From NCBI GenBank assembly GCA_958295975.1, contig OY282446.1, positions 124,001 through 188,000 on the forward strand: DNA of 64,000 nucleotides. Reading direction: 5' to 3'. The notes under the pieces were generated by a model, which was not told the DNA's origin, did not search any database, and saw only the letters and a program-made list of their open reading frames with translations. Shown here piece after piece: positions 28,234-47,264 of this stretch (position 1 is the first letter of the stretch; every line of letters starts with the position of its first letter). Both the position numbers and the translations under genes were made by a program. Source of the DNA: Tepidiformaceae bacterium. GTDB taxonomy: Bacteria > Chloroflexota > Dehalococcoidia > Tepidiformales > Tepidiformaceae.

Positions 28234-28788
28234 CTATCCCACCGACCGCACGAGCGGAACGGGTTCGGATGAATCACGGGGCGACTTGCCGCCCGCATTC
28301 GGGAGGGAGAGCTGGAGCGTGCGTTCCTCGATCGAGGGCTCGCGCCCCTCGTCCAGCGCCGCCAGCGCATCCTTGAGCGAATCGAGGTCCGTGAAGGCGC
28401 GGTAGACGGAGGCGAAGCGGATGTAGGCGATGTGGTCGAGGCGGCGGAGGGCGTCCATGGCCAGCTCGCCGATGCGGGCGGAGGGGGCCTCGGCTCCCCC
28501 ATCGCGCGTGAGGCGCGACTCGATGTCGGCGGCCACGGCGTCGAGCTGGCCCGCGGAGACGGCGCGCTTGGCGCAGGCCGCGCGCAGCCCCGCGAGCAGC
28601 TTGCCGCGGTCGAAGTCCTCGCGGCGATCGTCCTTCTTCACCACCTGGAGCGTGGAGCGCTGCACCGTTTCGAGCGTGGTGAAGCGCTCGCCGCAGCTGG
28701 CGCATTCGCGGCGGCGGCGCACGGCGCTGTCCGTGCCGCGGCTGTCCGTCACGCGGGAGTTGTCGGAGCGGCAGAAGGGACAGCGCAT
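28234..28788 (-). CDS. nrdR: transcriptional repressor NrdR
   Basis: The 184-residue protein starts with a zinc ribbon (Cys3, Cys6, Cys29, Cys32: MRCPFCRSDN and ECASCGERF) and continues with an ATP-cone (VVKKDDRREDFDRGKLLAGLRAAC to about residue 140). NrdR senses the ATP/dATP balance and represses ribonucleotide reductase genes. The tail after residue 150 is longer than in many homologues and ends PVPLVRSVG. It lies directly upstream of nrdJ, and two NrdR-box-like sites overlap its own promoter region, so autoregulation is likely. Confidence 0.96.
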   Translation of the reverse strand: MRCPFCRSDNSRVTDSRGTDSAVRRRRECASCGERFTTLETVQRSTLQVVKKDDRREDFDRGKLLAGLRAACAKRAVSAGQLDAVAADIESRLTRDGGAEAPSARIGELAMDALRRLDHIAYIRFASVYRAFTDLDSLKDALAALDEGREPSIEERTLQLSLPNAGGKSPRDSSEPVPLVRSVG

Positions 28789-28794
28789 CGGGAT

Positions 28795-28822
28795 ATTCTA
28801 GGGATCGATCAAAGCCTGTCAA
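28795..28822 (-). promoter_or_regulatory. nrdR promoter, leaderless, consensus -35
   Basis: On the reverse strand TTGACA (28822-28817) is followed after 16 bases by TAGAAT (28800-28795), and the nrdR ATG comes six bases later. This is the most consensus-like promoter in the window. The -35 element forms one end of an NrdR-box-like site. Confidence 0.65.
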
Positions 28823-28832
28823 TATCTTGTGT
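28817..28832. promoter_or_regulatory. NrdR box 1
   Basis: TGTCAATATCTTGTGT matches the published NrdR-box consensus (ACACTATATATAGTGT-type) at about 12 of 16 positions. It overlaps the -35 element of nrdR. Confidence 0.55.
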
Positions 28833-28848
28833 GGAATTATCATTCACC

Positions 28849-28864
28849 CTACAAGATATTGACA
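28849..28864. promoter_or_regulatory. NrdR box 2
   Basis: CTACAAGATATTGACA is the inverted partner of box 1; the core ACAAGATATTG is an exact reverse complement of CAATATCTTGT. Centre-to-centre distance is 32 bases, about three helical turns, which is the spacing known for paired NrdR boxes. Confidence 0.55.
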
Positions 28865-40551: not shown

Positions 40552-40764
40552 ATGACGCTGGAACGAATCGCCTATTCCTGCGCGAAATGCTCCAACCCCA
40601 CGTACGCGACGGAGGAGATCCGCGCCACCGGCAAGTACAGCCGCTTCTTCGACGTGCAGAACAAGAAGTTCACCGCCGTCATCTGCGAGAACTGCGGCTA
40701 CGCCGATTTCTACCGCGCCGAGGGCGGCAAGGGCGGGAACATCCTCGACTTCTTCACCAGCTAG
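40552..40764 (+). CDS. zinc-ribbon protein, YpzJ-like
   Basis: A 70-residue protein with CAKC near the start and CENCGYADFY in the middle, and the strongly conserved RFFDVQNKKFTAVICENCGY and GNILDFF at the end. This matches a small family of predicted nucleic-acid-binding zinc ribbons (YpzJ-like) with no established role. ATG 40552 follows GGAGG; GTG 40537 is an upstream alternative overlapping that site. It converges with the next gene, overlapping by four bases. Confidence 0.88.
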   Translation: MTLERIAYSCAKCSNPTYATEEIRATGKYSRFFDVQNKKFTAVICENCGYADFYRAEGGKGGNILDFFTS

Positions 40765-41429
40765 CGCTCGTCGAAGTGCAGGTCGCCGTGCGCGCCGTCG
40801 CAGAACGGCTTGGCGGCGGACGCCCCGCAGCGGCAGAGGGTGCGCCGGTTCAGCGCCTCCCAGGGCGCGCCGTCGGCGCTCTCCACGGGGATGCCGCCGC
40901 GCACCCACAGCGGCCCGCCGGGCACGACCCCGATTTCGCGCGGCAGCTCCGGCTCGACGGGCGCCTCCCCCTCGCGCGCGAGCAGCGCCAGACGGCCCGA
41001 GGGGCACATCGCCGCCATGTCCGCCACGCGCTCGCGGGCGTCCCCGCCCTCCTCCCCCATGAGGTCCCAGGCGTTGGCCGTGCGCGTGCCGCAGAAGCCC
41101 GCGCCGATGCACAGGGACTCGTCGTCGAGCATGACCCCGGCGGGGCCCTCGACGCGGCCCGCGCGCGCGGCCATGGGGCCGCGGTCGGCGGTCTCGGCCT
41201 CGGGCCACTCCCCGTTCGCGTGCGAGCCGTCGCAGTACGGCTTGTCGTTCGAGCGGCCGCAGCGGCAGAGGGCGTACATGTCGCGCGACTCGTCGAACTC
41301 GCGCAGCTCGTGCCAGGCCACGGGCTCGTCGTTGAGCGTCCGCACGGGCGCCATCTCCTTCAGCGGCACGCCGCCGGAGACGACGTAGGGCCCGCCGCGC
41401 ATGACCTGGATGCGCATCTCGTCCGTCAT
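40761..41429 (-). CDS. iron-sulfur protein with two CDGSH domains around a Fer4 domain
   Basis: The 222-residue protein has a CDGSH motif near the start (Cys55, Cys57, Cys66, His70: CRCGRSNDKPYCDGSH) and another at the end (Cys199, Cys201, Cys210, His214: CRCGASAAKPFCDGAH). Each should bind a 2Fe-2S cluster with three Cys and one His. Between them lies a divergent single-cluster ferredoxin-like segment (Cys107, Cys113, Cys142 in CIGAGFC and MCPSG). The three domains could pass electrons or clusters along one chain. A TACCAT box lies about 35 bases upstream of the ATG. Confidence 0.9.
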   Translation of the reverse strand: MTDEMRIQVMRGGPYVVSGGVPLKEMAPVRTLNDEPVAWHELREFDESRDMYALCRCGRSNDKPYCDGSHANGEWPEAETADRGPMAARAGRVEGPAGVMLDDESLCIGAGFCGTRTANAWDLMGEEGGDARERVADMAAMCPSGRLALLAREGEAPVEPELPREIGVVPGGPLWVRGGIPVESADGAPWEALNRRTLCRCGASAAKPFCDGAHGDLHFDER

Positions 41430-41478: not shown

Positions 41479-42741
41479 TCAGGCGGCGCGGGCCTTCGCA
41501 CGCAGGCACTCGACGCGCTTCGCCAGTTCCGCGATGGAGGCGCGGATAGCACCGGTACAGCCCGCCAGATCGATGGCAGTGACTTCCAGCCGCTTGCCCG
41601 CATGGAGGACACAGTACGGGGACGGATCGGCCTCGCCCTTCGCGTAGATGAGGAGCGCACCGGGCAGGCCCAGCGCAATGGCATAGGCGAGCGCCTGATA
41701 GAGGTCAGCGTTGGGGATTTTGGGGTCGGTGTTCTTGGGGTCGTTCCGATCAGTGCGCTTGTACTTGACATCGCCGACGAAGGTGCACTCTTCGCCTTCC
41801 CACAGCGAGAGGTCGGGCTTGAGCTTGATCTTCCCGCCCACATCAAGCGTGCCAACCACTTTGTCGTCCGCACGCAGCGTTCGCCCGGACTCTCCCAGCG
41901 CCTCGCGCAGCGCCCGCGTCACGAACTGCTGGAACACCTTGTTCATGTCCATCAGGAAGCCCGGCGCGCGCACGCCTTTCTCGTCTCGCGCCGCCTCGTA
42001 GGACCAGTGGCGCAGGATCAGCCGCGCGATGGCCACCGCCTCCTCGTAGTGATCGTTGAGCCGGTCGAACTTCACCTCCGGCACGGCGTTCGGCGGGAAG
42101 CGTTCGAGCGCGACGTTGGCCAGCGTGGCGTCAATGTGGCGCAGGCCCTCGCGCGCACGCGAATCGTTGAGCCGCATCCGGCGCAGCAGCCGCGCCGCCG
42201 CCTTGATCAGCCGGTTGGCCGTGACGTCCTCGGTGTACTCGTCGTAGCGCACCTCGACGGGTAGGGGCATATCAAAGCGCCGCCGTATCTGCTCGGCCAC
42301 CATGATGCGCCCGCGCACGGTGTGCAGCGCCTCCTCGCGCGTCTGGTAGTCCTGCCACAGGCCCTGCCGGAAGGCCCGCCCGGCGGCATCCCCCAGCGCC
42401 TGCGCCAACGCCTCGATCAGCGTGAGGTCGGTGACCTGCTTAAAACGAAACATCTCATCCCGCACATCGACGCCAGCCGCATACGACGCCAGGTAGAGCA
42501 GCCGCTGGATGGACACCTTGGGCTTGATCTGGAGCGACAGGTCGCCGAGTTCGAGCGCGCCGACGATGGAGCCGGGCCGCAGGGTGTGGTAGCCGTCTCC
42601 CTTGCTCGGCTCCGGCCTGATATCGAGGACACGCCTGTCCGTGTCCCTGAACCTGAGCGCATCGAGCGCCTTGAGTTGCGAGGCGGAGAGTTCCCGGGTA
42701 CAGGAATCGTACTCCGTAAGGTCGATGTCAATTTTCTCCAT
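41479..42741 (-). CDS. mcrC: McrC-like nuclease subunit of a McrBC restriction system
   Basis: The 420-residue protein has an N-terminal region (DIDLTEYDSCTRELSASQLKALDAL) that would contact McrB, the middle block LLYLASYAAGVDVRDE with MVAEQIRRRFDMPLPVEVRYDEYTEDVTANRLIKAA, and a C-terminal PD-(D/E)xK nuclease: LKPDLSLWEGEECTFVGDVKYKR. These are McrC features. With McrB it cleaves modified DNA. Its ATG overlaps the mcrB end by 14 bases. GC content is visibly lower than in flanking core genes, pointing to transfer. Confidence 0.9.
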   Translation of the reverse strand: MEKIDIDLTEYDSCTRELSASQLKALDALRFRDTDRRVLDIRPEPSKGDGYHTLRPGSIVGALELGDLSLQIKPKVSIQRLLYLASYAAGVDVRDEMFRFKQVTDLTLIEALAQALGDAAGRAFRQGLWQDYQTREEALHTVRGRIMVAEQIRRRFDMPLPVEVRYDEYTEDVTANRLIKAAARLLRRMRLNDSRAREGLRHIDATLANVALERFPPNAVPEVKFDRLNDHYEEAVAIARLILRHWSYEAARDEKGVRAPGFLMDMNKVFQQFVTRALREALGESGRTLRADDKVVGTLDVGGKIKLKPDLSLWEGEECTFVGDVKYKRTDRNDPKNTDPKIPNADLYQALAYAIALGLPGALLIYAKGEADPSPYCVLHAGKRLEVTAIDLAGCTGAIRASIAELAKRVECLRAKARAA

Positions 42742-44326
42742 TGGTACCCGGCTCGGTCGTGGCGGCGCTGGCCTGCCCACTATCGCCTTCGTTCGACGGC
42801 GTGTTGGCCGCAGCATCAACCTCGGTCCGGAGCGTCTTGAGCGCGAACTCCTCGATCTTGCGCGGGCCACCGTACAGCTGCTCCTCGACGTAGGGGATAA
42901 CGCTGTGCTCCCAGATGCGCTCCACCAGATCCGCGGTCAGAGGGCCCTTCCTGGGATCCCGCATGAAGTAGCTGGGACCGATGGCCGCCTCCTTGTTGTC
43001 CAGCTTCTCGTTGGCCCGCTTGACAACATCGACGACCCACTGCATATCCGGGGCATTCTTGTCCAGCCAGCTCTTCAGCAGGCCCTCGATCGGCTCCTTG
43101 TCCGGATGGAACGTGACGAAGTGGAAGCGGCGGCGCAGCGCCAGATCGACGAGCGCGATGGAACGGTCCGCCGTGTTCATCGTGCCGATGATGTACAGGT
43201 TCTTCGGCAGCGCAAAGGGCTCGTCGGAGTACTGGAGCTGCATCTCGTCCTCGCGGTACTCCAGCAGAAAGTAGAGTTCGCCGAGGATTTTTCCGAGGTT
43301 GCCACGGTTGATCTCGTCGATGACGAGGAAGAACTTCGAGTCTTCACCACGCTCCAACGCCGCTTTGGCCTCTTTCGCCATTTTGACCAGCGGGCCTTCC
43401 CGCAGCTCGAAGCCCGCCTGCCCGTCCTTCAGCGTGGGGCGGAAGCCCTGCACGAAATCCTCGTAGGCGTAGGACGGGTGGAACTGGACGAGCTTCACGC
43501 GCTTCTTGTCTCCGGCGAGGTACTCGGCCAGCTTGCGCGCGACGAACGTCTTGCCCGTGCCGGGCGGTCCCTGGAAGATGACCTGCTGCTTGTCAGCGAG
43601 CAGGTTCTCGATGTCGCGGAGGAAATCAGCGGGGAGCAGCAGATCCTTGGCGAGCGCGTCGAGGGATCCAGAATTGTTCGGCGTGGGCGGGGGCACAGGA
43701 TTGCCCTTCAGCCACCACACGATCGACTGCGCCTCAAGGCGATTGCGCGGCCGCTCGATCCCCAACTCGCGGGCCCGTTCGACGAGATGATCGAGGAACG
43801 CCACCATGTGCCCGTACGTCGCCCCTTCATCAGCACCAGCATACGGCTTCGGATAGTCCAGATAACCGTAGACTTGGTCGAAGGGGGTCCACCGGAACGG
43901 AGGATAGTCCGGCCCCAAAGCCATGAGCAGAACAGAGACTGGCGTAAGCCTCTGGCTAAGGCTGTTGAAATTCTTTTGCACACGGATTTGTTCCACAGGC
44001 ACCAAGTCAAGGAAATCACGGACACGCTTGTCCGGAGGCGTGTTCCCACCCTGCCACATATCCTGCAGGGCTCGCAGCGCAACGTCGGGATAGGTTTCAC
44101 ACCACTCCACAAGCGCACCGTGGTTCAGGAAGAACGTGATGTTGTTCTCCGTGCTACCAAACGCACTTTTCATGAGCGCGAGCCAGTCGGCATGGCCCGC
44201 ACGCACCGCATCGCACGCCTTTCGCATGCGCTCACTCAACTTCTCTTTGAAAGCCTCTCCCTCTTCAATCTCTGCCCAGCGCTGCTCCCCCACGCGCAGG
44301 TAGTGGTCCAGCTTCGCCTGATCCAT
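42728..44326 (-). CDS. mcrB: McrB-like AAA+ GTPase of a McrBC restriction system
   Basis: The 532-residue protein has an N-terminal domain of about 200 residues that I cannot assign (probably the DNA-recognition part), then the AAA+ module: Walker A GPPGTGKT (about 251-258), Walker B FFLVIDEINRGN, and the McrB signature GTMNTADRS (about 380-388) that confers GTP preference. It would recognise modified DNA and drive translocation towards the McrC nuclease. AAGGAG precedes ATG 44326. The N-terminal domain is not an obvious EVE, YTH or B3-like fold, so target specificity is open. Confidence 0.9.
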   Translation of the reverse strand: MDQAKLDHYLRVGEQRWAEIEEGEAFKEKLSERMRKACDAVRAGHADWLALMKSAFGSTENNITFFLNHGALVEWCETYPDVALRALQDMWQGGNTPPDKRVRDFLDLVPVEQIRVQKNFNSLSQRLTPVSVLLMALGPDYPPFRWTPFDQVYGYLDYPKPYAGADEGATYGHMVAFLDHLVERARELGIERPRNRLEAQSIVWWLKGNPVPPPTPNNSGSLDALAKDLLLPADFLRDIENLLADKQQVIFQGPPGTGKTFVARKLAEYLAGDKKRVKLVQFHPSYAYEDFVQGFRPTLKDGQAGFELREGPLVKMAKEAKAALERGEDSKFFLVIDEINRGNLGKILGELYFLLEYREDEMQLQYSDEPFALPKNLYIIGTMNTADRSIALVDLALRRRFHFVTFHPDKEPIEGLLKSWLDKNAPDMQWVVDVVKRANEKLDNKEAAIGPSYFMRDPRKGPLTADLVERIWEHSVIPYVEEQLYGGPRKIEEFALKTLRTEVDAAANTPSNEGDSGQASAATTEPGTNGEN

Positions 44327-44373
44327 ATCCTTGCTCCTTCCAGCCCCCGCGGGGAACCGCCAGCCGTTTCCTG

Positions 44374-44402
44374 AGCCTGGGGTTGCCATCCGCGCACGTC
44401 AA
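44374..44402 (-). promoter_or_regulatory. predicted mcrBC promoter
   Basis: On the reverse strand TTGACG (44402-44397) is followed after 17 bases by CAGGCT (44379-44374). The start would be near 44367, giving a leader of about 40 bases with AAGGAG. The -35 element begins one base after the 38-bp palindrome. Confidence 0.45.
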
Positions 44403-44403
44403 C

Positions 44404-44441
44404 GCCGTTGGTAAAGAAACGCGCGTTTCTTTACCAACGGC
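44404..44441. repeat. 38-bp perfect palindrome
   Basis: The arm GCCGTTGGTAAAGAAACGC (44404-44422) is exactly reverse-complemented by 44423-44441, with no loop or mismatch. Composition is near 47 percent GC, unlike the surroundings. It sits between the tRNA-Met gene and the mcrB promoter, directly upstream of the predicted -35. No T-run follows on either strand. It may be an operator, an insulating terminator for tRNA-Met, or a recombination footprint. Confidence 0.9.
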
Positions 44442-44469
44442 ACGGGAGCAGGCAAGCGCGTGCGCCGTG

Positions 44470-44545
44470 TGGTGGGCCCGGGTGGATTCGAACCACCGAC
44501 CAACCGGTTATGAGCCGGGCGCTCTCACCGCTGAGCTACAGGCCC
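44470..44545 (-). tRNA. tRNA-Met (anticodon CAT, elongator type)
   Basis: Acceptor GGGCCTG/CGGGCCC, D-arm GCTC AGCGGTGA GAGC, anticodon loop CTCATAA (anticodon CAT) on stem CCCGG/CCGGT with one weak end pair, T-stem GGTGG/CCACC around TTCGAAT, and encoded ACCA. The GGCTCATAACC loop region resembles elongator tRNA-Met more than initiator or Ile2 tRNA, though CAT-anticodon identity is hard to settle by eye. Confidence 0.9.
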
Positions 44546-44553
44546 CCGCCGCA

Positions 44554-44580
44554 CAGTATAGGCGCGGGCGCGCTATACTG
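44554..44580. promoter_or_regulatory. divergent promoters of tRNA-Met and acnA in one dyad
   Basis: CAGTATAG (44554-44561) and CTATACTG (44573-44580) form an eight-base perfect dyad separated by 11 bases. Read leftward it gives TATACT at 44560-44555 for tRNA-Met; read rightward it gives TATACT at 44574-44579 for acnA. The two -10 elements face away from each other. Confidence 0.6.
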
Positions 44581-44591
44581 GCCCGCACGCC

Positions 44592-47264
<2,673 letters not shown>

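Follow-up and report, generated by a model that had tools for sequence, protein, structure and literature searches.

What is a long perfect palindrome doing between a tRNA-Met gene and an McrBC restriction module? The palindrome lies in a 64,000-nucleotide stretch of DNA from a Tepidiformaceae bacterium, which was analysed as a whole (the window). Here, tRNA-Met, the palindrome, mcrB and mcrC follow one another in the same direction of transcription (Table 1), i.e., transcription of the tRNA heads into the palindrome and then into mcrB. A preliminary description of this DNA had offered three options, namely an operator, an insulator against tRNA read-through and a scar of integration. Our own reading is a tentative one: the palindrome may be an RNA 3′-end hairpin that stops tRNA-Met transcription before it reaches mcrBC or insulates mcrBC from it, perhaps together with Rho.

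A single-copy palindrome of 38 bp

A recount confirmed that 44404-44441 is an exact palindrome with no loop, as the preliminary description had it. The distance of 28 nt to the 3′ end of tRNA-Met, called on the minus strand at 44470-44545, also agrees with that description. The flanking bases add no further symmetry, and the only repeat that could pass for a target duplication around the palindrome is a trivial one of 2 bp. A window of this composition would be expected to contain 9e-6 loopless 19-bp arms, and the whole genome 3e-4; thus, the palindrome is not a chance occurrence, as had already been supposed. No other perfect inverted repeat of the window is as long, and five Markov shuffles gave 12 bp at most; in length and perfection, its stem is also the most extreme found in the 464 kb inspected for palindromes (the window plus 400 kb sampled from this genome). 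The low GC content ascribed to it holds in part, since 53% is below the 73% of the window but is not very low. As RNA, the palindrome is predicted to fold into a hairpin of 17 pairs with a 4-nt loop (-27.3 kcal/mol), the stem of which is about half GC, with its A/T pairs towards the apex and its G/C pairs at the bottom. It is directly followed by GTTGACG, with no T-run.

Table 1. Features of the tRNA-Met/mcrBC locus, in positions of the window
Feature	Position	Strand	Basis
CDGSH iron-sulfur gene, far edge of the insertion	40761..41429	-	Pfam zf-CDGSH; alignment to G008; start chosen by eye
mcrC, nuclease subunit, PD-D/ExK-like motif, overlaps the mcrB end	41479..42741	-	Pfam PF10117 McrBC, 1.4e-58; motif
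mcrB, AAA GTPase, Walker A GPPGTGKT, MNTADRS signature	42728..44326	-	Pfam AAA_5; motifs; start by Shine-Dalgarno
Promoter proposed earlier, TTGACG-N17-CAGGCT, poor -10	44374..44402	-	sequence; candidate only
38-bp loopless palindrome / 17-pair RNA hairpin	44404..44441	.	sequence; fold prediction -27.3 kcal/mol
tRNA-Met (CAU), CCA encoded	44470..44545	-	ARAGORN and Rfam; adjoins acnA in 9/9 genus genomes
Presumably acnA (aconitase), conserved neighbour divergent from tRNA-Met	44592..47264	+	

The palindrome has no second copy in its own genome (2.4 Mb, one contig). With up to three mismatches, the half-site matches the two arms only and the central 24-mer matches only the palindrome itself. 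When a 16-mer half was searched with one mismatch in 60 genomes including its own, one other genome was matched, that of the relative G008, by a single half-site (with one mismatch) on a different contig from the tRNA-Met/acnA locus of G008. The 38-bp palindrome was found in none of the eight other genomes of the genus. Given the single genomic copy, together with its absence from these eight genomes and from six other mcrBC loci (see below), the palindrome is neither a dispersed repeat, such as a REP- or MITE-like element, nor a conserved mcrB operator. Five genomes contain a match to the 19-mer half. Four of these matches share one reading frame in related sequences (...GRRFFTNGWNLFDF...), the other lies in a different open frame, and all five look like coincidences within coding sequence. 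A phage or plasmid element was likewise rejected, as the matches were short and at chance level: the central 30-mer had no match among viral contigs, and the 16-mer half matched nine viral contigs, once each.

An insertion behind tRNA-Met

The pair of tRNA-Met and the presumed acnA is kept in all nine genomes of the genus, and the tRNA gene's own -10 box (TATACT) is readable in each. The sequence directly 3′ of tRNA-Met varies between most members, with a similar flank in G001, G002 and G006, which suggests that this flank may be an insertion hot spot. Across the G001-G008 loci, the divergence of the 3′ flank sometimes begins within the CCA end. The palindrome is absent after the same tRNA-Met in the other eight members (in G002, only 46 nt of flank are available). 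Comparison of the sequences indicates that the mcrBC pair is an insertion 3′ of tRNA-Met. The mcrBC segment has a GC content of 63% vs. 73% for the window, and in G008 the tRNA-Met is followed, after about 200 nt, by the same CDGSH gene that follows mcrC here, an identity that rests on DNA alignment. From about the stop codon of mcrC onwards, this alignment is convincing.

The integration scar of the preliminary description therefore stands as far as the insertion of mcrBC behind the tRNA is concerned; the palindrome itself is not tied to the junction, and an att repeat, an integrase and a target duplication were not found. An island integrated at the tRNA by a tyrosine integrase was rejected, since no direct repeat of the tRNA-Met 3′ end was found on the far side (the longest shared word is 8 nt), and between tRNA-Met and the CDGSH gene there is no gene of integrase size except mcrB and mcrC. 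An integron attC site was also rejected, as neither of its core motifs (RYYYAAC and GTTRRRY) occurs in 44396-44451. No transposon ends were found at the palindrome, and transposition was set aside for want of a target duplication. The locus thus resembles tRNA-associated insertions of defence genes in having an acquired mcrBC directly 3′ of a tRNA whose flank is variable across the genus, and differs from them in having no integrase and no repeated tRNA end.

A functionless scar is conceivable, if rather unlikely, in which the palindrome arose by a templated fold-back or template switch, perhaps during the insertion of mcrBC behind tRNA-Met. The palindrome lies inside the interval of about 143 nt that must contain the tRNA-side junction of the insertion, neither arm has a second copy in the genome, and the palindrome was not found in the eight relatives of the genus, most of which differ from one another in the tRNA-Met 3′ flank. 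Its loopless perfection also suggests a recent templated origin. However, the target duplication, att repeat and integrase that were looked for are missing, no sufficiently close relative shows the state before the event, and no finding ties such an event to the mcrBC insertion. It would be highly improbable that the palindrome instead serves as the active end of a minimal mobile cassette carrying mcrBC, i.e., a single-stranded DNA hairpin site at which an enzyme supplied from elsewhere inserts the defence pair behind tRNA genes without an integrase of its own.

Upstream region of mcrB and other mcrBC loci

The identification of the module as McrBC in the preliminary description was borne out by the Pfam matches (AAA_5 and PF10117) and the GTPase motifs, and the McrB GTPase signature and McrC nuclease domain together predict a type IV restriction activity on the basis of sequence. 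The mcrB start is most likely 44326, which has AAGGAG before its ATG, and not 44389, leaving about 143 nt between the end of tRNA-Met and mcrB. The promoter proposed earlier for mcrB does exist as a TTGACG-N17-CAGGCT string at 44402-44374 on the minus strand, with a fair -35; its -10, however, matches only two of six positions, and a promoter scan of 42500-45000 reported none. No hexamer matching TATAAT in at least four of six positions was found within the 150 nt between tRNA-Met and mcrB. The candidate does satisfy a looser promoter pattern that occurs just nine times in 64 kb on both strands, and a weak mcrB promoter at 44374-44402 is therefore possible.

If mcrBC had no strong promoter of its own, it might be transcribed from the tRNA promoter, and the hairpin would then determine the share of transcription that gets past or the place at which an RNase cuts. 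The shared orientation, the 143 nt from the tRNA-Met end to the mcrB start, and the conserved -10 box of tRNA-Met next to the lack of a good -10 before mcrB are all consistent with such an attenuator or processing site. A weak promoter match proves little, however, when only the tRNA promoters of this organism have been modelled, and we give this explanation only an outside chance.

A dimeric regulator that binds the palindrome and controls mcrBC, like BrxR and RptR at other defence islands, appears unlikely. The palindrome does lie just upstream of a possible mcrB promoter, and there are precedents for repressors of defence genes with symmetric binding sites, namely BrxR (PMC9122601) and RptR (PMC12255303). 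The BrxR site has 11-bp arms with a 5-bp spacer (PMC9122601), the RptR site consists of repeated 6-bp palindromes, and the site of an HTH regulator dimer usually spans 15-20 bp (PMC12255303). Like these operators, the present site has inverted symmetry and lies ahead of a defence operon of the restriction type. However, its perfect symmetry over 38 bp is far longer than the published sites and exceeds the usual dimer site (PMC12255303), and the site is single-copy in the genome. The module consists of mcrB and mcrC only, with no adjoining regulator gene, just as the preliminary description had noted; a WYL regulator of the BrxR type was rejected, as no WYL domain was found in the genome. With a weak candidate promoter as well, the operator option retains nothing but its position in its favour.

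The other mcrBC loci do not help an operator either. The AAA-ATPase query matched 17 of the 60 genomes (its own included), and the upstream comparison was made on six mcrBC loci, leaving out weaker matches. These homologous pairs occur at other genomic places in four other members of the genus, one of which has two copies, and in G055. The palindrome is absent upstream in all six loci of these five genomes, where the gene starts are approximate, and no tRNA lies near the pairs in the stretches read. An absence before mcrB in all close homologues, which the preliminary description had named as a refutation of its view, is thus what the available homologues show, in a comparison that is a weak test, as they share only about 50-64% identity. 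At one locus (G005:C30), an imperfect inverted repeat (16-bp arms with one mismatch, 12-nt loop) is found close to where mcrB presumably starts, and it may fall within the reading frame.

Hairpins at gene ends in this genome

Long stems that lack a T-run are a habit of this genome. In the 400-kb sample, seven perfect stems with arms of at least 13 bp were found vs. none in a Markov null. Of 16 stems with arms of at least 11 bp, 14 were placed relative to crude gene calls (two with 11-bp arms were left out): four follow a predicted stop codon by no more than 50 nt, and five are located inside predicted genes. Among the four is a second loopless perfect palindrome, of 30 bp (15-bp arms), 22 nt past a predicted stop (L158, 2107-2136; about 2,032,107 in the genome), which has short T stretches at its edges. 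Elsewhere (L157, 4224-4260 and 4540-4574; about 1,914,224-1,914,574 in the genome), two perfect hairpins with arms of 14 and 15 bp lie within 350 bp, outside predicted genes. In the window itself, an inverted repeat at 28817-28864 (single genomic copy), whose perfect arms of 14 bp enclose a loop of 20 nt, immediately precedes nrdR, a minus-strand gene that starts near 28788 and has Pfam matches to the NrdR Zn ribbon and the ATP-cone. This repeat presumably represents a pair of NrdR boxes.

For tRNA genes, a stem of at least 10 bp occurs in 3 of 45 downstream 60-nt flanks, this tRNA-Met included, vs. 3 of 900 in the null and none of 45 upstream flanks. In two relatives, stems of at least 9 bp were counted in 2 of 35 tRNA flanks (G004) and in 0 of 32 (G008, not counting a Met copy whose flank was cut short by the contig end), from 30 loci per genome out of 46 and 39 matches. 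Most tRNAs of these three genomes are thus without a long hairpin. No run of five Ts was found within 120 nt of the tRNAs in any of the 45 flanks, so tail-poor ends are the rule in this genome. A second tRNA-Met (L080, L124-L130) has a 3′ hairpin that is kept in all eight genomes compared (its own and seven others); stem and loop differ in sequence, but the pairing is maintained. In the G008 copy of this hairpin, A and T tracts form part of the stem. Rho is encoded in the genome.

The palindrome has one property of an intrinsic terminator, a stable hairpin just after a gene (28 nt, -27.3 kcal/mol), and lacks another, a GC-rich stem followed by a run of Ts. In a classical terminator, the arrangement of A/T and G/C along the stem is reversed. 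The A/T-rich apex and the missing T-tail argue against a classical intrinsic terminator, and the perfect symmetry over 38 bp, which exceeds what a terminator needs, counts against it too. A terminator scan, which requires a loop of 3-8 nt and a T-tail, did not report the palindrome. In E. coli, GC-rich hairpins without a U-tract have been read as marking Rho-terminated transcripts that are trimmed back to a stabilising hairpin (PMC13289151). The present palindrome resembles such transcript ends in being a strong stem soon after an RNA gene, with no T-run and with Rho in the genome; unlike them, it is loopless, perfect over 38 bp and A/T-rich near its apex.

Of the three options of the preliminary description, the insulator, recast as a 3′-end hairpin, is the best supported, based on its position and strand, the long tail-poor stems at other gene ends, the conserved hairpin of the second tRNA-Met, the presence of Rho and the E. 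coli precedent. Besides the layout of the stem and the missing T-run, several results speak against it: most tRNAs of this genome and of two relatives have no long hairpin, five of the 14 placed stems fall inside predicted genes, and the eight other members of the genus have no such palindrome behind this tRNA-Met. From this position and genome habit, we infer transcription through the palindrome, termination and insulation. RNA polymerase passing the end of tRNA-Met would copy the palindrome, and the transcript would fold into the 17-pair hairpin 28 nt behind the tRNA, marking the 3′ end of its transcription unit. The hairpin might itself halt the polymerase, acting as a terminator that nearly lacks a T-tail; alternatively, Rho might halt it downstream, with exonucleases trimming the RNA back to the hairpin. 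Either way, the tRNA promoter would be kept from driving the mcrBC pair inserted immediately downstream in the same orientation.

A tRNA 3′ hairpin, an acquired McrBC and a variable tRNA flank are each of a known kind, and this copy is unusually long and perfect. A literature search returned no title on a tRNA-palindrome-mcrBC arrangement, which is not evidence of absence. Neither outcome would change current understanding. If the hairpin insulates, the locus would be a single example of a defence operon that sits directly behind a tRNA gene and is not driven by the tRNA promoter; otherwise, it would be a well-marked case of defence genes being taken up at the 3′ flank of a tRNA.
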